A stretch of 51,634 nt of DNA, from positions 1 through 51,634 of the forward strand of contig JAUVXR010000017.1 in the NCBI GenBank assembly GCA_030603495.1, written 5' to 3'. Below the pieces are notes generated by a model, which saw only the letters and a program-made list of their open reading frames with translations, was not told the origin of the DNA and did no database searches. The stretch comes from a bacterium (GTDB taxonomy: Bacteria > Armatimonadota > Zipacnadia > Zipacnadales > Zipacnadaceae). Both the position numbers and the translations under genes were made by a program. Positions 8,890 through 41,888 of this stretch are shown in pieces (the first letter of the stretch is position 1; each line of letters opens with the position of its first letter).

Positions 8890-11800
8890 TTAGATCTCCA
8901 CTGCATCCGCGTAGACTAGGCGCCGGGCGGTCTCCAGCCTCAAGGCCGTGAGGGTCGTGGCAGTGGCGATCTTGTCAGTGTAGTATATCTCGTACTCGCG
9001 GATGACCAAGCGGAAGGGCTGTGAGCCGCGCGGGCCCGGCAGCGTTACACTGCCGGTCCACGCTGATCCGATACGCCTCCGCTGCCGCGTGAGCGCAAAG
9101 GGCTCAGTCGAAGCCGGAACCCAACCCATGACGCCCTCGACATTCCCCTGCCTCTTTTCGACGCTGACCTCGACTTGGCTACCCCGGCTGGCTTCGGAGG
9201 CGGCATAGGTGGGACCGGTCACAGTCACGTTCACTTTGGCCTGGTCAGCCTGATCAAGAACGACGGTAGCCGTACGGTCGGGAGCAAGCTGTGCGAAGTC
9301 TGCCAGCACCACCCGCGAGAGCTTGACGTCTGCCTGTGGTCCCTTGACTGACATCGGTTGATAGCGAGCCAGCGCCAGGCGGACGAACGGGTAGTAAGCC
9401 TGGCCGCAGTCAATCTCAATGTCGCAGTACCACAGCTGGCGCTCTTCATCGTAGCCGACCTCGTGCCCGGCGACCTGAACCTTCGCTCCGGGCACCTCCT
9501 CCAGGGTCAGGCCAGACTCGGTGGCCTGCGCCGCCGTGAAGGCCTGCAGCGGGGGTGCCGAAGTCGTAACCGCCGCCGACTGCCACAAGGGGTCCTGCCC
9601 CCAGTGGCTTACGTAGTCTTTCAGGCGGGCTGTGCCTCCCACTAGCGCCCGCATGGTCAGCATCATCCGCTGCGGCTGCGCCAAGACTACACCCAGCAAC
9701 TCCCCGTCGCCCGAAGAGTACCAGGGGCGCTCCAGGTACACACGTAGGCCTTGGCCCGAGCGTGTGCTGGTAACACCCGTGGCGGTCTTTTGTTTTGTCC
9801 AGCCGAAGGTAGGTATCACGTAGAGCACATCAGGAGGCGCGGGCCGCGCCGAACTGAGCACGTCCACCGCCACCTGCTCGGAGGTACGCGTCAGATCCAG
9901 TGCCCCAGACTTGACATCATCGGGGTCGAAGTACTCCCGGAAGCGACTGCTGGCAAGCGCCTGGTACGTCACTCGCCGGTACTTGGTATCGCCGAACTCG
10001 TGGCGTTGGCGGAGATACAACATAGTCTGTTGCGGTTGGAGGGCGGTTTCACCCACGTCCGCCTTGCCCAAGAGTCGGCGCGGACCCGGCTCCGCCAGGA
10101 TGTCTACTGGCTCTTCCCACTGCGCCTGAATGTCTAGCTTCGCTGTGCTCTTGCCGCTAATAGGCACCTGATCGAGCAGCGTCGCGTACGTCTCACCGAT
10201 GCCTTTGTTAGCTCTGGGCTGTTGCCACTGGGGGATAATCAGCGGCTGCTGCACGGCGTGGACCACGACCAGGCGGCGGTGGGGCGTGAGCATCCAGTGC
10301 TCTCCCTTCTCCGCCTCTTGCTTGAGCTGTACCACCTTTTGCACCTGAGTCGGGCTCAGCTTGACCCGACCCATCCAGCCGGGCATTTGCCGCACCTCGT
10401 GCAGTTGCCTGAATACCTGTCGGCTCTCTGCCTGGGGGAGATTGGCCGCCTTGAGCGCTGGCGCGGCGATGCCCTCAACAACCCACCGCCACATCGCCAT
10501 GCGGGGCAGTTCTGTCGGCGGCGCGTAGGTGCTGATGATGATTTCGGCCATTTCGGCCTTCGGTAGCGGCACCCGCAGGGCCCGTCTGTCAGTGTCAAAG
10601 GCGACCTCAGCCTGGCTATCGGGGTCCTCGTACAACACCATGCGGAAAGGCTCGAGGTCCGGCCAGGCGCCCTCGAAGGGGATGCGCAGCACCTGCTCCT
10701 GGGCATCCCTTCCCCCGAACAGCGGCTTGAAGCGAATCAGCGCACCAGCCGCCAGCGGGTCCGGCAGGTACGGCAGCTGCAGTTGGGCTACGTCGTAGCT
10801 CTCGGCCAGGGACTGGTCTCGGCTCACGATCAGATTGTAGGTCGCCGCATCCCCTCTCATCCCATCGGCGGGATTGTCGAACATACCGTGGGTCTCCGCC
10901 AACAGCTCAGAGGTCTTCGGCGGCGCCTCGTGACGCTCGGAGACTTCCTCGGAGCGAACCCGGTCCTTGGCCGGCTCATCATTAAAGCTGCGGATTACCG
11001 CGTGCTCCAGGGACTCTCCCGGGGATCCTGACAGGCTGGTGCGGGGAACGGTGACCGGCGCCGCCACGGGCTCATGGCGGAAGTAGGTGATCGGCTCGGT
11101 GGCATGGGAGTCATCCGCCTCCTCCAGCGAGAGGCCGCTACCAGCTAGGTCCACGGCCCGCGCCCGCAAGCGGTATTCAGTGCCGAAGCGCAGCCGCGGC
11201 AAGGAGCTCGAAGACGGCACGAAACTTGCCTCCAGACCGAAGGCGGGTTGGGAGAGCGTCTCTGCACCCTCTTCCTCGACAGCCTTTCCTGGCCGCGGTG
11301 CGCACAGGCTCCAGCCCTCCCAGCGCAATAGCACCTCATGCACGCGCAGTTCCTCGGACGATCCGTCAGAGGATTCGGTTGCCGCCGTGGATACCCAGCC
11401 ATCGTCTTCCAGCGTCAGCTCCCGCCCTGACTTGGTGAAGGCGTAGGTCCCCACACGCCCGCACAGCGAGTGCCACTGCTCGCTGGCACTGTCCCAGACA
11501 TCTAGGCGATGGCCGCGCGTGAGATCTTCCGCGTAGAACGATACTTCCTCATCGGGCTGGGGGCTGGCCAGCATAAGTTGATTAAGACTCGTCGCCCGCT
11601 TCAGAATGTTCGCTAACATTACCGCCCGATCCACGCGGGCCACCCAGAGTCCCGCAGAGCGCAAGGTGGGCAGGGCGGCTTCCTCCTGCTCGGGCTCGGG
11701 CTCCGGCTGCGTCTGGGCTGCGGGGATCGCCTCGACCGTGCCCGGGCGCATCAGGCGTGGTGTTACTGTGAGGGCCCGCGGCGCCAGTGCCAGGGCAGGC

Positions 11801-12906
11801 TTAAGCGTCACCTTCCGGGCCAGTTCCATGGTCTTTATGGCAGCGCCATCCACGTCGAACTGACCTACTTCGAAGCGCTCATCGTCATCCAGCCGCAGCA
11901 TACCGTCGCCCAGGTCGGAGTCAGTCGAGCGCGTTCTCGCCCGAAAAGCCTGATTGGTGAGAACGCAGTGGGTCCGGGGCATTCGGTTGACGGTAGCCGT
12001 GGCCAGTTCCGGGCTCCACTGTGGCACCACGCGAACGGTGGTGGCTCCCACCAGGTCTGCCGTGAAAGGCACTTCCAGGTCAATGACCAGCCCGAGGCGC
12101 CGCAGCAACCCCGGATACTGGCCCAGCGACGACAGAATACGGTGGAAGTCAATGGATTCCACCAGCGCCTGCGCCGTGAGCCGCGCTACGGGCCGGGTGA
12201 CTGGTGGTTTGTGAAAAGCCTGGAGCTGATGAAATTCGACGGCTGCCGGAGCGACACCGGCAACCAGAGACTGGGGCTGCGCCACGCGGGCCTTGCCCAG
12301 GACTACACGCTGGGAACTAGCGGCCTCATAGGCGGGATTCTGTACTACCTTCAGTCCGCCAAGGCGCATGCGGCTGGCGAGTTGTTGGGAGATCTGCGTA
12401 CTGCGCTGGGGGGTCAACGAAATATCCTGGAATAGCCTGCGCACCCCCTGGAGGCTCTGGTTCTCCGGTGTCAACCGGGGGATCTCTACCGGCGATTCGA
12501 TACCGACCGCTTGATATGTTTCCTTCAGGCGAGACACGACGTTTCGCACCGGGAAGGAGAGTATCGGGCGCGCGGACATGTCGGGGAATTCGTACGGCTC
12601 GACATAGACATTGGCATCGAACAGGCTTGCCCATAGCTCCGCCGCCGGCGGTTCACCGGGTGGAGCGATGCGCTCCGCCATGATGGCTGGTCCCGCGCCG
12701 AATTGCACGGAGAATTGCATTTCAGCTACCCGCTCCGGCCAGTTCAGGAAGTCGGGGAACTGGGACAGCGTCGGCCGAGCGCCGCCTTCGTTGGTCTCCA
12801 GCCGGGGCGAGACAAATACCGAGAGCCGCACACGCGCATCACCGGCGCCTGGTGTGCCGCTCACCCCATTGGGCAGTGCTGTCCACATTACCGTCTGTCG
12901 TTTCAT
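8890..12906 (-). CDS. Giant conserved protein of unknown function (partner of the Tat protein)
   Basis: A 1338-residue protein that I cannot assign to a characterised family. The start has MWTALPNG, RLSVFVSPRLET and FPDFLNWPERV, which read as conserved motifs. The middle has an FnIII-like strand RLRARAVDLAGSG, and the last third has HEFGDTKYRRVTY followed by SSRFREYF. An acidic Pro/Glu linker (PEPEPEQEEA) separates the N-terminal third. No signal peptide or membrane segment is evident. I choose the ATG at 12906 (AAAGGGTG upstream); the TTG at 12927 would overlap the upstream gene. It follows the 1562-residue gene after only 13 bases, so the two are surely co-transcribed. Its beta-rich composition suggests a structural or binding role in a complex with its partner. 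Confidence 0.8.
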   Translation of the reverse strand: MKRQTVMWTALPNGVSGTPGAGDARVRLSVFVSPRLETNEGGARPTLSQFPDFLNWPERVAEMQFSVQFGAGPAIMAERIAPPGEPPAAELWASLFDANVYVEPYEFPDMSARPILSFPVRNVVSRLKETYQAVGIESPVEIPRLTPENQSLQGVRRLFQDISLTPQRSTQISQQLASRMRLGGLKVVQNPAYEAASSQRVVLGKARVAQPQSLVAGVAPAAVEFHQLQAFHKPPVTRPVARLTAQALVESIDFHRILSSLGQYPGLLRRLGLVIDLEVPFTADLVGATTVRVVPQWSPELATATVNRMPRTHCVLTNQAFRARTRSTDSDLGDGMLRLDDDERFEVGQFDVDGAAIKTMELARKVTLKPALALAPRALTVTPRLMRPGTVEAIPAAQTQPEPEPEQEEAALPTLRSAGLWVARVDRAVMLANILKRATSLNQLMLASPQPDEEVSFYAEDLTRGHRLDVWDSASEQWHSLCGRVGTYAFTKSGRELTLEDDGWVSTAATESSDGSSEELRVHEVLLRWEGWSLCAPRPGKAVEEEGAETLSQPAFGLEASFVPSSSSLPRLRFGTEYRLRARAVDLAGSGLSLEEADDSHATEPITYFRHEPVAAPVTVPRTSLSGSPGESLEHAVIRSFNDEPAKDRVRSEEVSERHEAPPKTSELLAETHGMFDNPADGMRGDAATYNLIVSRDQSLAESYDVAQLQLPYLPDPLAAGALIRFKPLFGGRDAQEQVLRIPFEGAWPDLEPFRMVLYEDPDSQAEVAFDTDRRALRVPLPKAEMAEIIISTYAPPTELPRMAMWRWVVEGIAAPALKAANLPQAESRQVFRQLHEVRQMPGWMGRVKLSPTQVQKVVQLKQEAEKGEHWMLTPHRRLVVVHAVQQPLIIPQWQQPRANKGIGETYATLLDQVPISGKSTAKLDIQAQWEEPVDILAEPGPRRLLGKADVGETALQPQQTMLYLRQRHEFGDTKYRRVTYQALASSRFREYFDPDDVKSGALDLTRTSEQVAVDVLSSARPAPPDVLYVIPTFGWTKQKTATGVTSTRSGQGLRVYLERPWYSSGDGELLGVVLAQPQRMMLTMRALVGGTARLKDYVSHWGQDPLWQSAAVTTSAPPLQAFTAAQATESGLTLEEVPGAKVQVAGHEVGYDEERQLWYCDIEIDCGQAYYPFVRLALARYQPMSVKGPQADVKLSRVVLADFAQLAPDRTATVVLDQADQAKVNVTVTGPTYAASEASRGSQVEVSVEKRQGNVEGVMGWVPASTEPFALTRQRRRIGSAWTGSVTLPGPRGSQPFRLVIREYEIYYTDKIATATTLTALRLETARRLVYADAVEI

Positions 12907-12919
12907 ATTCAGCACCCTT

Positions 12920-15900
12920 TCAAGCAAACGCCTCGCAGTAGGCGATCCAGTCAGCTTCGGCCATCAAGTCCTCAAAGCTCGGCGGGCTGGTTGCCGGAAC
13001 GAGCCCGCCCGCCGCACCACCGAGTTGAGCGAGCCGGAGGCCATCGAGCCGGGCGTGTCCCTCGGACGAGCCCGCAAATTGCCGCTTCACTCTCAAGGTC
13101 ACGCTGATGCTGAAGAACAGTATCTCGATGGAGACCTTCAGACTGGCCTCGCCCCAGACGCGATTGCCCGCCGACTCGTAAGTCAAGCCCAGGTAGAACT
13201 CCAGGGAGATAGTGATAATCCCCAGGATCGATAGTGAACCGCCCATTCTCAGGTACCCGGTGAGAACGGCTTCCCCATCTTCCCACTTGTAGTAGACGCC
13301 GCCCATGGCGTAGATGCCACCGCTGGCCACGCCAATATCGAGCGACAGGCTCCCACCGAATTCGAACGAGGCCTCCAGTAGCGACAGCCCCTGTGGGGTC
13401 AGCTCGATGGCGAAGAAGCCGCCCCCGCCAAACATTGATACCGTCAGCAGGAAGGGATTATGTCGCTCGCAGAAGCCGAAGCGCAAGCGCAAGGGGTTAC
13501 TGGTGAAGGGCAACTCGAAGCCAGCGATGAGGCTGATGTTCTGCAAGCTGAAAACGCCCACAGCGACCGAAGGGATGGGCAGGGTGTAGCCCAGCTTGAT
13601 ACCGGTTGGGGAGATATCCAGGTTAGGCGGGTCACTGAAGCCGTCCATGGGAATGAACTTGCTCAACGTGTTGACAAACTTCAGCGGCCCCCCGAATTCG
13701 ATCTCGCCGATCTCCGCGCTTACATCCAGCTTCTGCCCAGTCTTAGAAAGAAACGAGATCTCGTCGAAGGCAATACGTATGAAGTAGTCAATACTGCCGA
13801 AGGGGATCAGATGCAGCGCAAATCGGGTAAGCTTGCCCTCAACCTGGGCAGTCGCGTCCTGGCCAGATAGGTCAGAGCGCAGCGTCGCGCTAATTGACAG
13901 AGAGGTGCCATTGTCCGCAGCGAAGATGGGCTTGCCAAACGAGGGAAAGGACTGAACGTCGGGAGCCCATTCGAGCTTGGCCACGACCGCCTCGGGCGCT
14001 CCGTTGTCGTCGCGCTCGACGTGGCTGGTCAGCTTGGGAATCTGATCGTCCCCGAATACGGCCTTGATGATGTCGCGCAGCAGAATCGACCCCAGGATCT
14101 TGGCGGTATCACTGAAGAACTCGGTGGGGTCGAAAGTACCACCGGCGAGATCCTCGAGCACTCCGCCTACTGGGCCAAACTTGCGCGACAGGCCCTGGAT
14201 ATTGAGGTCGGGCGTGGCTAGGCCGCCGGACTGGTCTGCGCCGAACTGCAGCGGCAGCGAGTCAAGCAAACCGATGAAAACTTCACCCTTGTTCCGGGCC
14301 GAGTGCCAGGCATCATTGATGTACGTGGGATGTATCTGGATAGCGGTGCTCGCAGCACTGCCGGTCACCTGAGCAACCGCGGGCATCCGGACCTCCGCCC
14401 GCGCCAGCGTTGGATAGCAGCGCGGCTGGTTATTCTCCTCCAGCGTCTTGGCAGATACGGCATTGTCCGGAGCTGTCATCTCCGCCCCGAAGATCACCGT
14501 CTGTGTCTCCAGGGAGGTATCTCCCGGCTTCTGGGCGCTGCTGTCGGCGAAGGCTACCTTCTGGCCGAACATACCCGACTGCCGCCGACTTTCCTCGGCC
14601 TGCTCGTTGTAGTATGTTACTACGTGCCCCATAGTGTCTTCGTCGAAGGCGAAGCCGAATTTCTTGCCAGGAGCATTCTCCACGCCGATGAAGATGAGCG
14701 GGACTGAGAAATCACTGCGCTGACCGTCCCAGTCTTCAGCGACGATCTGGAAGGGGAAATCCTCGCTGCCCACGCGGGGCCAGAAGGCGGCCTGGGCCGA
14801 GGCGCCGGTGCCGGGCACTGCACTGGACTCCGGTGGGTTCAGATTGGGCGTCACCAGCGAAGTAATCCGTACCCGTCGGAAGGGTATCGCCCGGCCGTCA
14901 TTGGCCTGACCGAAAGCGGGATATGTCTTCTCGGGCTCTCGTACGACGATGAACATCCTCTGGCGCAGGTAGGCGATGGTGCCGGTCCGGCCGGTGTGGA
15001 ACTTGCGCTCCGTGACCTTGATCAGCGAAGCCCGGTGACCAAAGGGGAACAGGTAGCCCTTGTAGACCACCTTGACATACTGATCCCGGCCCATTGTCGC
15101 CTGGTGCCGCCATGCTTCAACTGACAGACCGTGCCCCAGCGGTACTTCCGCGGCATACTTGCTGTCTATCCAGACACCCAGTGGGCTCAACATCAGCCGG
15201 TCAGCGTGCACGACCCGCGACTGGGCTTCCGCTATGCTGAAGTCGGAGGTCAGCCAGACTAGCTCGCAGCGGTCGCGCCTATCCAGCGACATGCGAAAGG
15301 GGGTATTCACGTGTGTAGGAATAGACTTGGAGTAGTCCGGCGACCAGACGGCCCGCAGCGAGCGGAAGTAGGCCAGCTGGTCGCCTCCGGAAGTGCGCAG
15401 GACCCGGAAGGTACCGTCTTTCCAGCCGTACTCGTACTGCCGGTCAACGACTCGCTCCTCGCCTGAGCTGACGCCCAGGCGCGTGTGCCACAGCTCGACG
15501 CGGCCGTTATGCTCTACCAGCTTATCAGTGTGCGCCCAACCAGCCATCGAACTCGGCGAGAGCATCAGCCGGTAGGGCGCTTCGATGGCGGTCTCCGTGG
15601 CGGTCGGCTCGCGGATAATGCGGACGACTCGCGCCAGGGCGGCTGCTGAGAACGTTGTGCTCGGCACGAGCAACTCGAGCTGTGCCGGTAGGCGAGGCTG
15701 GCTGCCCTCGGTCGTTAGCCGTTGCCCGGGCTTGGACACCTTGAACCGCAGACCCCCGGGCGTCTGAAGCGGGCGGAGCTGGACTGGTGTGGGCGGCGGT
15801 AGCGCCGTTGGGGCGACTGAGAGCTTGTATTTCGTCCAGTCCAGGAGCGCACTGAGGCTGTAGTCAATGGAGTTTACGCCTTCGGGCAGTTCGAAAACCA

Positions 15901-17608
15901 GGCGGCTCGGCCCCGACAGCCGCGCCCGCACCGGCGGTGGCGGTAGCGGCTCACTCCCGCTCGCACTCGCGTCCGCATCTGGCTCGACCCCAGCTGGGCG
16001 GTAGGCATTTCCCACCGGCAGGTTGTTGTCTACCTCAAAGAAAGCCTGCTCGGCAATGTGCTGGGGTGGAAAATGCACGATTATGTACGCGGGCTCCTGG
16101 CTCTGGACGCGGACAAGCTGGGGGGCCTCGCCATTGCCAGTCTCAAGCGACAGGTTGCGGAACTCAAAACTCAGGGCGAGCAGGTCTTCGGGCCGGACCA
16201 CGTTGACGGTAAGACCCAGCAGACGGATTCCCGGCAACTGTAGACCGGGAACAGGCCTGACCTCGCCTGCGGGTGGGACTTGGACGGCGGGAGGACGCTC
16301 GATTCTCCCGGCGGGGGGCTGGCGCCGCTGGATCTGCGCCACTTGCGTGTCGCTGCTGACGAAGTGTACCTGGGCACCCTCCGGCGCCGCACTTAGCTCG
16401 ACCATCGCTCCTGCCAGCGGCGCAAACACTGCTAACAGAGCCGGCTCGCAGCGGGCCTCTCGAATCTGCCCGCCCTCGCTGACGACCTCAAAGGGCCGGC
16501 AGTCGGGCACATCGCCTAACTGCACGCTGCACCCCTCGCCGTGCAGCCACACGGGAGTGTCGCTGAAATTGGCTACCAACGCCGTCTCGTTACCCCCAGG
16601 GCTCCAGGCGACCGCGTAGCGCGGCTCGCGCAGCGGCAGCGCGAAGGCCTGGCCATCGCCGCGGGGGCACTGCTCCGAGGGCAGATAACTAAGCCGGGCT
16701 GCTTGGCCGTCACCCTCCGCCAGCAGCGTTCGCTGAGCTCTCCCCCGCTCGTCCTCGCCTGCCTCAATCTGGATCGTATCGAAGGGGCAACCTTCCGCCG
16801 TGAACTTGCCCTCCCCGGGTGCGGAGAGACTCTCGACAAGTGCCCACTCGTGCTCCTCACGCTCGAGGACCACTAGGCTCCGCCTTGCGGGAGGCTCTTC
16901 GATAATGCTGGGGGCGTCGGGCTGAAGCAGTGCGACGGTGATAGTGTCGGAAACCACAGCCTTACCCAGGCCGGTAAGCGAGGCAATCTCGCAGCCGCAC
17001 AGCTTCAGTCGCCAATCTGGCGAGAACTCCGCTTCGCCGGCCCCGCTCAACGTCAACCCGGCCCCGTCAGCCAGCGGGCAGGCCAGGCGGGACAGTCTCA
17101 CGCGCCCTCGTATCGGTTCGGCTCCGGCCAGCCAGCTTGCCAGCGGCACCTCGCCCCTCAGACCACCCAGCTTGAGCTGCAGTCTCATCCGCCAACCAGC
17201 TAGCCCCCGCCTCAGTTGACATACAAAGTCCGCGGGCAATTGCGTTCCCGGATAACGCGCCCCAGTCAGGGTAACCCGGATGAAATCGTTGTTCTCCTCT
17301 ACTTCGAGGCGGGCCTCTCCGGCAAGCCGCTGCCGGTCAATCACCCAGCGTTCGCGCCCCCCCAGCTTGAAGGCTACTCGGCCGGGCTGCCTGGCCAGCT
17401 CAAAGCGCCCCAGCAGCGCCGGACCTACTTCCTTGACCATAGGAGGCACGCTTACGGCAGCAACTCCGGCTAGGCCTAGCAGTTCCCGGCGGGAAAGACT
17501 AACGGCGCTGGGGGTGGACAGCACTTCCGACAGAGTTGGCTTAGCGTCCGTGGACCGCAACCGGGGCGTGCCGCGCAGGGCGGCGAGGTTCAGTCGGGTA
17601 CGCTTCAT
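12920..17608 (-). CDS. Giant Tat-exported beta-rich protein of unknown function
   Basis: A 1562-residue protein with a twin-arginine signal: SRRELLGLAGVAAVSV with R40-R41 after a long 40-residue n-region and then a hydrophobic core. Residues 60 to about 1200 are mixed beta-rich sequence with no recognised enzyme motif. About 1240-1510 is striking: alternating short hydrophobic strands rich in Gly and Phe (LTVSMFGGGGFFAIEL, GGSLSLDIGVASGG, RMGGSLSILGIITISLEFYL) ending in an acidic tail. In style this resembles DUF6603-like beta-repeat domains, but I cannot confirm membership. GGAGGCTCCAGG precedes the ATG. tatA lies about 230 bases upstream on the same strand, suggesting dedicated Tat export. 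It may be a large cell-surface or periplasmic assembly. Confidence 0.85.
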   Translation of the reverse strand: MKRTRLNLAALRGTPRLRSTDAKPTLSEVLSTPSAVSLSRRELLGLAGVAAVSVPPMVKEVGPALLGRFELARQPGRVAFKLGGRERWVIDRQRLAGEARLEVEENNDFIRVTLTGARYPGTQLPADFVCQLRRGLAGWRMRLQLKLGGLRGEVPLASWLAGAEPIRGRVRLSRLACPLADGAGLTLSGAGEAEFSPDWRLKLCGCEIASLTGLGKAVVSDTITVALLQPDAPSIIEEPPARRSLVVLEREEHEWALVESLSAPGEGKFTAEGCPFDTIQIEAGEDERGRAQRTLLAEGDGQAARLSYLPSEQCPRGDGQAFALPLREPRYAVAWSPGGNETALVANFSDTPVWLHGEGCSVQLGDVPDCRPFEVVSEGGQIREARCEPALLAVFAPLAGAMVELSAAPEGAQVHFVSSDTQVAQIQRRQPPAGRIERPPAVQVPPAGEVRPVPGLQLPGIRLLGLTVNVVRPEDLLALSFEFRNLSLETGNGEAPQLVRVQSQEPAYIIVHFPPQHIAEQAFFEVDNNLPVGNAYRPAGVEPDADASASGSEPLPPPPVRARLSGPSRLVFELPEGVNSIDYSLSALLDWTKYKLSVAPTALPPPTPVQLRPLQTPGGLRFKVSKPGQRLTTEGSQPRLPAQLELLVPSTTFSAAALARVVRIIREPTATETAIEAPYRLMLSPSSMAGWAHTDKLVEHNGRVELWHTRLGVSSGEERVVDRQYEYGWKDGTFRVLRTSGGDQLAYFRSLRAVWSPDYSKSIPTHVNTPFRMSLDRRDRCELVWLTSDFSIAEAQSRVVHADRLMLSPLGVWIDSKYAAEVPLGHGLSVEAWRHQATMGRDQYVKVVYKGYLFPFGHRASLIKVTERKFHTGRTGTIAYLRQRMFIVVREPEKTYPAFGQANDGRAIPFRRVRITSLVTPNLNPPESSAVPGTGASAQAAFWPRVGSEDFPFQIVAEDWDGQRSDFSVPLIFIGVENAPGKKFGFAFDEDTMGHVVTYYNEQAEESRRQSGMFGQKVAFADSSAQKPGDTSLETQTVIFGAEMTAPDNAVSAKTLEENNQPRCYPTLARAEVRMPAVAQVTGSAASTAIQIHPTYINDAWHSARNKGEVFIGLLDSLPLQFGADQSGGLATPDLNIQGLSRKFGPVGGVLEDLAGGTFDPTEFFSDTAKILGSILLRDIIKAVFGDDQIPKLTSHVERDDNGAPEAVVAKLEWAPDVQSFPSFGKPIFAADNGTSLSISATLRSDLSGQDATAQVEGKLTRFALHLIPFGSIDYFIRIAFDEISFLSKTGQKLDVSAEIGEIEFGGPLKFVNTLSKFIPMDGFSDPPNLDISPTGIKLGYTLPIPSVAVGVFSLQNISLIAGFELPFTSNPLRLRFGFCERHNPFLLTVSMFGGGGFFAIELTPQGLSLLEASFEFGGSLSLDIGVASGGIYAMGGVYYKWEDGEAVLTGYLRMGGSLSILGIITISLEFYLGLTYESAGNRVWGEASLKVSIEILFFSISVTLRVKRQFAGSSEGHARLDGLRLAQLGGAAGGLVPATSPPSFEDLMAEADWIAYCEAFA

Positions 17609-17835
17609 CCTGGAGCCTCCCGTTTACTGTAGCCTGTGCGGGACACGAGCTATGAGAGACCGTCAATGCCAATGCGCTGCGTACTGCCTACGTCAGTGGC
17701 CGTCCGACATACTGGGGGCCAAACCGACCCAGTCAACCCTTGATAACTTCGCCATCGAGGCCCACTTCTCCTCTTCAGGCGTCGAAATTAGCCAGTGCCC
17801 TCAGCTTGCCATCCAGGCTGGAGGCGGGGCAGGAA

Positions 17836-18039
17836 TCAGGTCGGCCGGTCCGAGGGCGGCAGCTCGGGGGATTGCTCCGAGTCATCGGAGTCCTCCTCCT
17901 CGGGCTCCTGCACAGCCTCCTTAAACTCCCGAACTCCCTGTCCCATACCTCGCATGAGCCGCGGAATTATGGTCGCTCCGAACAACAAGATTATGATAGC
18001 CACAATCCCGATGATCTCCCACATACCCAAGCCAAACAT
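17836..18039 (-). CDS. tatA: Sec-independent translocase protein TatA/TatE
   Basis: A 67-residue protein with one N-terminal membrane helix (GMWEIIGIVAIIILLFGAT), the FG hinge, then the amphipathic helix IIPRLMRGMGQGVREFKEAV and an acidic tail. This is the complete TatA/B/E architecture and the usual TatA length. TatA oligomers form the pore-like element through which folded twin-arginine proteins pass after TatC (or TatBC) recognition; no tatC is seen here. GGAAGGAGGCGGG precedes the ATG. The next gene downstream encodes a giant protein with a twin-arginine signal, which makes a functional link likely. TatA and TatE cannot be told apart from this sequence. Confidence 0.92.
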   Translation of the reverse strand: MFGLGMWEIIGIVAIIILLFGATIIPRLMRGMGQGVREFKEAVQEPEEEDSDDSEQSPELPPSDRPT

Positions 18040-37877: not shown

Positions 37878-37925
37878 GGTATTGCTGAGGCTTAACCGGT
37901 AACCATCAGGCCTCAGGTGACTATA

Positions 37926-40900
37926 ATGCTCAGAATCATCGCCGATCACATTATGTCGGGGCGTCACCGGCTCGGCCGGCACGTGCTCTTCATCGGCAGC
38001 GCGGTGCGCATACCCCCCAGGGATCTGCCCGTCTACCGGATCCTGGAAGCCCTCGTGCGCGAGCAGGTCGCCGACTCTTTCCAGCATCTGCCCGTCGAGC
38101 GTCGGGAGGCCGCCGCCCTGGCACAGTTTGCCTCCCAAGTGCCCGGCCATGACCATCGCTGTCAACTGCTGCGCACAAAGCTCGCCGATAGCCGGCCCGC
38201 CCAAGGACACATACAACTGGCTCATCTCGTTCAGGAGGGCTACTTCTCTACTATCTTCACACTCGAGCCCGACAATCTGCTGGAACAGGCCCTCAGCGCC
38301 CAACACTTAGAACCGGAAACTGACTACCACCTGCTGGTGGCCGGCGTTGATGAGCCCGATGTCATGTCGGTGGCTCTGGAGGACTCTTCACGTGTCGTGG
38401 TGATCAAGTGCGGGGGAGACCTGGACAGCAAGTATCTACCCCTTACCTCCGACGAAATCCGTGATGGACTGGAGCCGATCCGCGCCATCCTCGACCACGC
38501 CTTCCGGGTCCTGTCCATCTTCACTGCCTACAGCGACCGCGACGAACCGTTCCTGGACTTCATGCCCGCCGAAGGCAGCAAGGTCTTCTGGGTAAACACC
38601 CAGGTCCCCACTGCTGACGAAGAGATGTACAAGCAGTTCAAGCTGGAAAGCCCCGGCAGCGTGGAATACCACAATCTTCAGCCCAAGGTGGTGGAGTGGC
38701 TAGACAAGCGCCAGTCGCAACGACACCTGCTTGTACGAGAGGCGGGCTCATTCGACGACTTCTTCGGGCGGCTTCGGGACCGCTTCCAATACCGGCAGCA
38801 CAACAGCCGCCGGCAGCGCAACAGCCGCCGGCAGCGCAAGGATCTCAGCATTTTGCGCGGGGGGCCATACCGCTTCCTGGACTACTTCGATACCGAGGAC
38901 GCTGAACTGTTCTTCGGCCGCGAGCAAGCAATACAGGACATGTGTAGCCTGATCGCCGACCAACCCCTAACCGTGCTGTTCGGCCGCTCCGGTATCGGCA
39001 AGACCTCCCTGATCAAAGCTGGGGTCATCAGCCGGCTCGAGGGCCACGAGGAGCAGCACCTCGAGGAGGCCGATATCTGGCTGCCGATCTATGCCCGTTG
39101 CGAGGACGATCCCGTCGCCAGCATTCGTCAGGCCGCCCTCCTCAGAGCGGAAGAAGATGGCTATGACCCGGAGGAGTCTAGCCAGCAGGCCAGGCTCGGC
39201 GACCTGCTGATACATATCGCCACGGCCACCGGAAAGCACGTGGTTGTTTTCCTGGACCAGGCGGAGGAGCTGTTTGTCAAGCTCGGTCGCCAGGTTCGAG
39301 ACGCTTTCGTTCAGCAGGTCAGGGAGTGCCTGGAACTAGCCCGCGACGACCTGCACCTGGTGCTCAGCATCCGCGAGGACTACATCGGCGAACTGTACGA
39401 GCTACGCGCCGACCTGCCCGACATACTGCAGAACATCTACCGGCTGCGTCGGCTCGACCGCGCCCAGGCCGAAAGGGCGATCGTCCAGCCCGCGGTGAAT
39501 TTCGGCCTGCAAGTTGAACGGAAGCTGGTAGACCAACTACTCGAGGACCTGGCCCGCGAAGGGATCGAGCCGGCCCAGCTTCAGATAGTCTGCCACCGGC
39601 TCTACGAGGAGATTCCGCCGGGTTCGGAGGTCATCACCCTCCGCAACTACCAGAAGCTGGGCGGTGCGGTGCGGATATTGCGCGAGTACCTGGACTACGC
39701 GCTGCGCCAGTTGCCCATGCTCGAGCGGGGTATCGCCCGGGCTATTCTCAAGCAGATGGCCGTTTCCTCCGAATTGAAGGCCACACGCTCGCTGGCGCGC
39801 ATCGCCCAGGAAGTCGGCCAGCAACAGCGTACCGTCGAGCGCGTCTTGGCGAAGCTGGTGGATTACCGGCTGCTGCGCGGCTTGGGCAAGGACCGGCAGC
39901 GCAACTATGAATTGGTCCACGAGCAACTAGCCGAGCAGGTGGACGAGTGGGCTTCCGAAGAAGAACTGAGACTACGCGATGTCCAGGACCTGCTCACCCG
40001 CGAATTGAACAACTTCGAGAAGTTCGGCTTGCTGATGGGCAGCGAAGAACTGCATATCATTGACGACCACCGCGAAGACCTCAGTATATCCCCGGAAGAG
40101 CTGGAATTGATCATGCGCAGTGCTGCTACTCACGATATCGAGGCGGAATACTGGTTCTTGCGGGCCGACGAACTGGACACAGGTAAGCACTCGGTTTTGA
40201 GTTCCCTGCTGCGCGATGAAGCCCCCGAGGTTCGGCGGGTGGCGCACCGGTACTTGAAAGACAATTTGCACGAAGATCTTATTCCTGTCCTGGTGGCTGG
40301 CCTGGACGACGACCAGCCTGACCTGCGCCGCCAGGCCGCCGAGCATCTCCAGTCCCTGAAACGTGAGTTAACTGCTTGGCTGCGAAATGGTGATGCGCGC
40401 CAGCAGGTGGCCGCGGCCCGGGCCTTGGGAGGAATAGCCGCCGGTGACCAACGTTCGAGCATAGCTCTGATCGAAGCTCTCAGTGATGATAACGCCGAGC
40501 TTGCTGAGCACATTGCCCGCGACCTAAAGAAGTCTGACAACCCCCGGAATCTACCGGCGCTGATGCATCGGCTCACCTCCGAATCCGAGCCGCCGTGGGC
40601 CGTCGCATACGTCCTGGGGCAGCTTTGTGCCGCAGACACCCAGTTCAGCCAGTTGCAGGGGAGCCTGCGTAGTCACCCGAGGCTGGCGCAGTTGCGCTAT
40701 GCCGTTGCAGTTGCCCAGGGGCTGCGCCGTGAATCGCAGCAGGCGCACGCCAGCCTGGATCGTGCGCGCGCCCTCAGCTCTGGTCAGATCGCTCAAAGCC
40801 GGATTGAGGAGGCCGAGCAGGCCATTGCGGCCGCTCAGCAGGAAGTCGCAGCCGGCGTAGACCAGTGGCCTATGTTCGGGGGCGGGCCGGCCCACGGGGC

Positions 40901-41888
40901 CTTCACCCCAGAAGCCCTCCGTCCGCCGCTGCAGGAGCTGTGGTCAGTGCGCACCGGTGCCCCCGTGGTGGCCTCACCGGTGGTCGCTGATCATGTGGTC
41001 TATGTCGGCTCACGTGACGGCGTCTTCTACGCGCTGGACAGCCGGGAAGGAGATACGCGCTGGCGCTACGAAGTAGGCGAGCATGTTGAAGCTGCTGCGG
41101 TTGTGGCTGGCGACCTGGTCGTCTTTGGCGCTGCCGACGGTCAACTCCGGGCCCTGCATCGCACTACTGGCCGCCTCCAGTGGCAGCAGGCCGTGGCCGG
41201 CCCGATTAGGTCAGCATGCACTGTGCAGGACAACCAGCTCTTTGTCGGTGACGAGGCGGGCGGCCTCTGGGCGATTGATTGGCTTTCGGGCGAGGTCAAC
41301 TGGCAGATGCAGACCAAGCAGGAGATAGTGGGCGCTCCGGCCGCCGGCGGCGACGTGGTGGTGGTGGGCTCGTGGGACAACGGGCTTTACGCTGCTGGCA
41401 CGGCTGACGGCACGCTGCGTTGGCAACTCGACACGGACGGCCCGATCTCGTCTTCGCCGGCCCTAGTTGGGCCGACGGTCTTCTGCGGGTCGGATGACTC
41501 GTGCCTCTATGCTGTGGAGCTAGCTTCGGGTGAGCTCCAGTGGCAGGCTAAGCTAGGCGGCATGATTAGGTCCACACCGGCAGTAGCCGGCGAGCGACTA
41601 GTAGTTGGCTGTGCCGACGCCAAGGTCTACTGCCTCGATGTCACCTCTGGAGCGCCAATCTGGCAGTATGAAACCGGCGAGGAGGTCCTGGCCTCAGCGG
41701 TCATTACCGGAGATTTCGTCTACATCGGATCCAAGGACGGCGTACTGTACGCTCTAAACTTGGTCGATGGTCAAGTAGAATGGGAACACCACACCGTCTA
41801 CGGCATCTACTCGACGCCGGCTGTAGCCGAAGCTACTCTGTACATCGGCATTGCCTACTATCATGTATCGGCCTTCAGGTCACAGTAA
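37926..41888 (+). CDS. Degenerate-SIR2 / nSTAND1 NTPase / helical repeat / PQQ-type propeller protein
   Basis: A 1320-residue multidomain protein. Residues about 15-265 follow a SIR2-like layout, but the NAD loop is only IGSAVRIPP, the TxNxD site reads TLEPD, and the usual KLHGD is KCGGD (161-165), so the catalytic His is lost. GPYRFLDYFDTEDAELFFGR (313-332) is the nSTAND1 entry motif, then Walker A GRSGIGKTS (353-361) and Walker B VVVFLDQAEE with D444. After the NTPase come helical HEAT-like repeats (about 740-990), then eight propeller blades of the PQQ/BamB type (SPVVADHVVYVGS...YALDSREGDTRW and so on). No signal peptide or membrane helix. Fold classes are those of STAND sensors, including SIR2-STAND antiphage proteins; function is inference. 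The start at 37926 is preceded by AGGTG. Confidence 0.85.
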   Translation: MLRIIADHIMSGRHRLGRHVLFIGSAVRIPPRDLPVYRILEALVREQVADSFQHLPVERREAAALAQFASQVPGHDHRCQLLRTKLADSRPAQGHIQLAHLVQEGYFSTIFTLEPDNLLEQALSAQHLEPETDYHLLVAGVDEPDVMSVALEDSSRVVVIKCGGDLDSKYLPLTSDEIRDGLEPIRAILDHAFRVLSIFTAYSDRDEPFLDFMPAEGSKVFWVNTQVPTADEEMYKQFKLESPGSVEYHNLQPKVVEWLDKRQSQRHLLVREAGSFDDFFGRLRDRFQYRQHNSRRQRNSRRQRKDLSILRGGPYRFLDYFDTEDAELFFGREQAIQDMCSLIADQPLTVLFGRSGIGKTSLIKAGVISRLEGHEEQHLEEADIWLPIYARCEDDPVASIRQAALLRAEEDGYDPEESSQQARLGDLLIHIATATGKHVVVFLDQAEELFVKLGRQVRDAFVQQVRECLELARDDLHLVLSIREDYIGELYELRADLPDILQNIYRLRRLDRAQAERAIVQPAVNFGLQVERKLVDQLLEDLAREGIEPAQLQIVCHRLYEEIPPGSEVITLRNYQKLGGAVRILREYLDYALRQLPMLERGIARAILKQMAVSSELKATRSLARIAQEVGQQQRTVERVLAKLVDYRLLRGLGKDRQRNYELVHEQLAEQVDEWASEEELRLRDVQDLLTRELNNFEKFGLLMGSEELHIIDDHREDLSISPEELELIMRSAATHDIEAEYWFLRADELDTGKHSVLSSLLRDEAPEVRRVAHRYLKDNLHEDLIPVLVAGLDDDQPDLRRQAAEHLQSLKRELTAWLRNGDARQQVAAARALGGIAAGDQRSSIALIEALSDDNAELAEHIARDLKKSDNPRNLPALMHRLTSESEPPWAVAYVLGQLCAADTQFSQLQGSLRSHPRLAQLRYAVAVAQGLRRESQQAHASLDRARALSSGQIAQSRIEEAEQAIAAAQQEVAAGVDQWPMFGGGPAHGAFTPEALRPPLQELWSVRTGAPVVASPVVADHVVYVGSRDGVFYALDSREGDTRWRYEVGEHVEAAAVVAGDLVVFGAADGQLRALHRTTGRLQWQQAVAGPIRSACTVQDNQLFVGDEAGGLWAIDWLSGEVNWQMQTKQEIVGAPAAGGDVVVVGSWDNGLYAAGTADGTLRWQLDTDGPISSSPALVGPTVFCGSDDSCLYAVELASGELQWQAKLGGMIRSTPAVAGERLVVGCADAKVYCLDVTSGAPIWQYETGEEVLASAVITGDFVYIGSKDGVLYALNLVDGQVEWEHHTVYGIYSTPAVAEATLYIGIAYYHVSAFRSQ
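38802..38837 (+). repeat. Perfect 18-bp tandem duplication inside the STAND gene
   Basis: AACAGCCGCCGGCAGCGC occurs twice head to tail (38802-38819 and 38820-38837), encoding two copies of an N-S-R-R-Q-R unit in the basic linker between the SIR2-like and nSTAND1 domains. It is in frame, so it can expand or contract by slippage without breaking the gene. Confidence 0.9.

Follow-up and report, generated by a model that had tools for sequence, protein, structure and literature searches.

Among the complexes that use the Tat pathway by hitch-hiking is hydrogenase-2. The PaoABC complex of E. coli is another hitchhiker on the Tat pathway (PMC4273604), and the size of Tat cargo has been put at up to 150 kDa in a review (PMC6708511). 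TatA proteins specific to a substrate have also been described, namely TatAd with PhoD in Bacillus subtilis and TatE with NosZ in Pseudomonas stutzeri (PMC4361764). Here we consider a locus that bears on both themes, in which a tatA gene is followed by two very large genes, designated G1 and G2, in the genome of a member of the Zipacnadia, a class of Armatimonadota described from marine sediments (PMC10290634). The window, by which we mean the whole stretch of DNA analysed, measures 51,634 nucleotides. A sequence-only reading of it had proposed that the two giants form one folded, Tat-exported complex. We report that G1 and G2 constitute a genuine two-gene system with a wide distribution and, to the extent of our searches, no earlier description.

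The locus and the distribution of the pair

The window carries the three genes on its minus strand, in the order tatA-G1-G2 (Table 1), and the open reading frames, together with the family match of the first gene, bear out the order and lengths given by the sequence-only reading (tatA, a 1562-residue giant and a 1338-residue partner). Its spacing of 13 bases between G1 and G2 is likewise correct when G2 is taken from its conserved ATG. The mechanical list of open reading frames opens G2 at a TTG (12927) that is not conserved, and the 13-base gap holds because the G2 of close relatives begins at an ATG. The N-terminus of G2 is itself conserved among close relatives (MKxQTxxWTALPNG), and three motifs singled out earlier, FPDFLNWP, HEFGDTKYRRVTY and RARAVDLAG, are present and all located in G2. 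G1 and G2 have masses of 169 and 148 kDa, such that a heterodimer would be 317 kDa. The flanking genes are unrelated in kind (a sulfatase, a DUF4019 protein, a uroporphyrinogen-decarboxylase-like protein and a rhamnose isomerase), and scans for promoters and terminators returned matches at chance level only. The genome, a 2.67-Mb assembly in 62 contigs, carries G1 and G2 once each, along with three TatA-family genes and one tatC. Elsewhere in the window (37917-41888), a 1323-aa protein joins an nSTAND1 NTPase to HEAT repeats and a PQQ-type beta-propeller, an architecture known from sensor or defence proteins.

Table 1. Coordinates of the genes and of the features within them, numbered along the window.
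Feature	Position	Strand	Description and basis
tatA	17836-18039	-	67 aa; TatA/E family, PF02416 E 2.6e-14
G1, first gene of the pair	12920-17608	-	1562 aa, ATG start; open reading frame and homologues
G2, partner	8890-12906	-	1338 aa; open reading frame and homologues; signal peptide absent
G1 twin-arginine motif and hydrophobic stretch SRRELLGLAGVAAV	17453-17494	-	residues 39-52; position kept across lineages
G1 predicted amphipathic beta-meander	13073-14008	-	residues 1201-1512; beta hydrophobic moment and low-confidence model
G1 conserved C-terminal tail WxxYCxAFA	12923-12952	-	alignment; tails of distant relatives
G2 putative fibronectin-III-like sandwich	9847-10245	-	ORF residues 895-1027; structure matches, model mean pLDDT 45

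G2-type genes occur in 22 of 291 Armatimonadota genomes, in 17 of 396 Acidobacteriota genomes and in 14 plasmid records from Streptomyces, Cupriavidus, Diaphorobacter and rhizobia; a plasmid search with G1 led for the most part to the same records, with the hits immediately upstream of G2. Wherever room allows, G1 stands before G2 on the same strand in the loci read, and it directly precedes G2 in 37 of the 37 loci tabulated, the pairing being seen in Armatimonadota, Acidobacteriota, Actinomycetota and Pseudomonadota. The sequence-only reading had asked for profile searches of both giants and for counts of their adjacency, and had held that families failing to occur together would tell against it; the outcome was the opposite. 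In most loci the two genes overlap slightly or are separated by up to about a hundred bases, and the larger apparent gaps, of about 800 bases in four Acidobacteriota, are an artefact of the automatic G2 start, as the open frames overlap. In Streptomyces sp. NBC_01334 (L080, 12001-15996) the annotated G2 start at 12769 is about 250 codons late, with homology running from near 12007. Either G1 or G2 is split by a frameshift in several assemblies (L050, L054, L055 and L081), which may reflect assembly errors, decay or phase variation. Distant rhizobial and Ruegeria forms are also adjacent and larger, with a G1 of 2277-3311 aa and an unbroken G2 of 1560-1899 aa; in Sinorhizobium meliloti LMB1 the masses are 331 kDa (G1) and 192 kDa (G2). 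In a tree of G2, one Acidobacteriaceae copy groups with Zipacnadia, while one Armatimonadota copy from outside Zipacnadia groups with Acidobacteriota, and several of the plasmids that carry the pair are conjugative. The best reading of this distribution is a two-gene cassette that has spread horizontally among several phyla.

Neither protein has credible relatives in Pfam, NCBIfam, PADLOC, PHROGs or the sequences of the PDB, each of which was queried with single proteins and, where the resource allowed, with a profile or a full alignment; for Pfam, the scan also covered all members of the two alignments. A profile comparison detected no relationship between G1 and G2, a search for phage relatives of the pair found none, patterns drawn from G2 found none in IMG/VR, and our literature search returned no description of the pair. 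The earlier remark that the giants have no recognised enzyme motif agrees with this absence of family matches, on which their apparent status as no known enzyme is based, the folds being predicted at low confidence. Two giant, unnamed families that always occur together across phyla represent a real gap in annotation.

Clustering of the neighbouring genes for a common third partner showed that none recurs between distant lineages apart from tatA; close Acidobacteriota loci have flanks in common. Directly after the pair, some plasmids of rhizobia and Ruegeria encode small proteins whose N-termini look Sec-like (L177, 22907-23242; L178, 21102-21482; L179, 26405-27391), and these match no Pfam family. 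Rhizobial plasmid copies also lie beside defence-type genes, including dpdE/dpdF, an N-6 methylase and an HsdR-like gene (L177, 23570-28812; L178, 1-7019; L180, 28875-29984), and the dpd, restriction and methylase surroundings of some plasmid copies amount to a defence-island setting.

The twin-arginine motif of G1 and the linked tatA

Of 37 G1 proteins, 27 have a twin-arginine motif in the first 150 residues of the open frame, against 1.33 on average and 4 at most in shuffled sequences; none of the 37 G2 proteins has one. The window copy runs from the motif into a hydrophobic stretch, SRRELLGLAGVAAV, as expected of a Tat substrate; the earlier assignment of a Tat signal to the first giant and of none to the second is upheld on both counts. 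Since the pair is conserved across several phyla and the motif stands far above shuffles, chance is ruled out for the observation. It occurs among Armatimonadota and Acidobacteriota, in one Streptomyces and in each of the five rhizobial and Ruegeria forms read. Diaphorobacter, Cupriavidus, a second Streptomyces and several Acidobacteriota are without it, and the majority of these motif-less copies also have no N-terminal part of G1. The distribution of the motif needs about five changes on the G2 tree, and Tat targeting therefore seems to have been lost or gained several times. As judged from the letters, Tat targeting of G1 would thus be the common form and not a universal one, about nine of the 37 having no recognisable motif. 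No AxA-type cleavage site is evident by eye after the hydrophobic stretch in the window G1 or in most Acidobacteriota; for this reason the window protein may remain anchored through its signal. The rhizobial signals, with an AxA-type site evident by eye, look cleavable. Ahead of the twin-arginine motif, an RLNLxALR element conserved in Zipacnadia and relatives opens G1 (residues 1-36, window 17500-17608), and it probably has a separate role of some kind, because an Acidobacteriaceae copy (L143) without the twin-arginine motif retains it.

The tatA of the window is a member of the TatA/E family, scoring 52.7 bits against PF02416 (cut-off 21), whose architecture is a short N-terminal membrane helix, a hinge and an amphipathic helix. 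In 14 Zipacnadia loci the sequence ahead of G1 is readable, and in seven of these tatA lies directly upstream, a linkage with a chance of about 3e-18 under a simple model, and on plasmid pC of S. meliloti LMB1 an annotated tatA lies directly downstream of the pair. In Acidobacteriota, the loci read showed no tatA close to the pair. The linkage is real but optional, and the association claimed for tatA by the sequence-only reading has to be narrowed accordingly: it recurs in half of the Zipacnadia loci and in S. meliloti, and is absent from the other half and from the Acidobacteriota loci read.

Most Zipacnadia genomes carry a single TatA-family gene, and at least two are present in 8 of 16 genomes with the pair versus 4 of 30 without it (p 0.013). 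In a TatA tree that is small (about 50 columns) and weakly supported at most inner forks, a supported group that holds the other copies takes in two of the seven linked TatA proteins and excludes the remaining five. The residue that follows the hinge “IP” is acidic in the 28 other copies compared, one of which is identical to the linked copy of a sister genome, and is R, K or A in the five diverged linked proteins. The window tatA is of this diverged, pair-linked type, with IPR in place of IPE or IPD. Linkage and divergence together mark an additional member of the TatA family that differs from the housekeeping copy and sits beside one putative substrate. The comparison suggests that some lineages have a specialised paralogue as their linked TatA, and that others recruited theirs separately. 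One could object that both features, the adjoining tatA and the RR motif, are incidental, and that a cytoplasmic pair merely occupies the same genomic spot as tatA. The lineages that are missing the motif and the Zipacnadia loci that are missing tatA would fit such a coincidence, which we nevertheless consider highly improbable given the excess of the motif over shuffles, the strength of the linkage under the simple model, and the recurrence of both features in S. meliloti.

Predicted folds and a possible mechanism

Family-averaged hydrophobicity places the pair's longest stretch of strongly amphipathic beta character at residues 1201-1500 of G1, and residues 1201-1512 are also the best conserved part of G1. 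AF2 models of G1 residues 445-1562 and of G2 ORF residues 8-1207 reached mean pLDDT values of 40.4 and 45.0, probably because just eight sequences went into the modelling, and fold matches to these low-confidence models are therefore hints only. Foldseek gave no match to the models at E 0.001. The C-terminal part of the G1 model is a meander of long antiparallel strands that matches porins with Z up to 11.7, although the matches are partial, mostly at 5-9 A rmsd, and made with a model of mean pLDDT 40; weaker matches are to lipid-carrying sheets, such as that of triglyceride transfer protein. The predicted strand pattern would also be compatible with a lipid-lined groove or with a module that inserts into membranes. 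That G1 is a resident porin of the outer membrane is unlikely, because Streptomyces has G1 too and Tat carries folded proteins.

The pair might instead act on membranes as a contact-dependent or secreted factor of a pore-forming or toxin-like kind, with the G1 meander inserting into the membranes of target cells and G2 acting as its carrier. Its sporadic, plasmid-borne, cross-phylum distribution, the porin-like strands predicted for G1 and the defence genes beside some plasmid copies are all compatible with this reading. It is set back by the failure to find an immunity gene or any other common neighbour, by the lack of a match to PADLOC systems or known toxin families, and by the low confidence of the G1 model, and we rate it as improbable.

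In the better-modelled region of G2, the predicted structure resembles fibronectin type III domains, the best matches having Z 8-9.3 and aligning about 95 residues at 2.5-2.8 A, from a model of mean pLDDT 45. A seven-strand sandwich of about 95 residues defines this fold; a Pfam FN3 match is absent. These putative sandwiches bear on a further alternative, in which G1 alone is Tat-exported or membrane-anchored and G2 is a cytoplasmic chaperone or assembly factor for it. Tat substrates often have dedicated cytoplasmic chaperones, and the uniform absence of a signal from G2 would follow naturally. Known Tat chaperones are small, however, whereas G2 is as large as G1; fibronectin-III-like sandwiches are usual for extracytoplasmic proteins; and the pair is retained in lineages where G1 has lost its Tat signal. 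We regard a cytoplasmic G2 as unlikely, if the most credible of the alternatives weighed here.

We favor as rather probable the explanation in which the pair is a Tat-exported cassette, with G2 as a hitchhiker and sometimes with a dedicated TatA. A partner without a signal, always encoded beside the signal-bearing subunit, is what hitch-hiking would predict. From the observed pairing, signal distribution and tatA linkage we infer that G1 and G2 would fold together in the cytoplasm, that the signal of G1 would bring the complex to TatC, where the linked TatA would serve this oversized cargo, and that G2 would cross the membrane as the hitchhiker of G1. Where an AxA-type site is not visible, as in the window, G1 may then be held by its signal. 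Beyond the membrane, the beta-meander of G1 may bind a hydrophobic ligand or a membrane, with the fibronectin-III-like modules of G2 as the binding or scaffolding part; such a secreted assembly, drawn from low-confidence models, is the weakest step of the proposal and should be taken as tentative. Several facts weigh against the explanation as a whole: a folded complex of this mass would be twice the limit usually quoted for Tat, the motif is missing in several lineages and the linked tatA in half of the Zipacnadia loci, the window G1 has no clear cleavage site, and the AF2 models are of low confidence. The sequence-only interpretation nonetheless finds partial support, in that its pairing, its signal on G1 and not on G2, and its linked tatA all recur in unrelated bacteria, tatA and the motif without being universal.

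A bolder version, in which a dedicated and diverged TatA adapts Tat to a folded two-protein complex of >300 kDa (over 500 kDa in one rhizobial form), far larger than the cargo known for Tat, within a mobile secretion cassette, is possible but doubtful. The presence of a diverged TatA beside the pair would make the folded-cargo size limit of Tat testable, and the linked paralogue would do the same for any control that TatA paralogues exert over cargo size or specificity. As forms of the pair reside on plasmids of cultivable S. meliloti, Streptomyces and Cupriavidus metallidurans, the uncultured host is dispensable for such experiments.

Comparison with described Tat systems

Like OmpF, CymA and microsomal triglyceride transfer protein, G1 is predicted to contain long antiparallel amphipathic strands in its C-terminal region; there is no sequence similarity to porins or lipid carriers, and the likeness is partial and comes from a low-confidence model. 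PaoABC-type complexes differ from G1-G2 in being redox enzymes with cofactors and in being much smaller, whereas G1 and G2 match no redox or other family. They are alike in that one subunit bears a twin-arginine signal and a partner encoded adjacently does not (PMC4273604), and co-export of G1-G2 would be a prediction of the favored reading. The pair-linked TatA differs from TatAd with PhoD and from TatE with NosZ in having no tatC beside it and in being confined to part of the lineages, its use for the pair being surmised from linkage and divergence. The PaoABC, PhoD and NosZ precedents establish the principle, and its extension to G1-G2 is conjectural. What the linked tatA has in common with TatAd and TatE is that each is an extra TatA-family gene serving, or linked to, one substrate.
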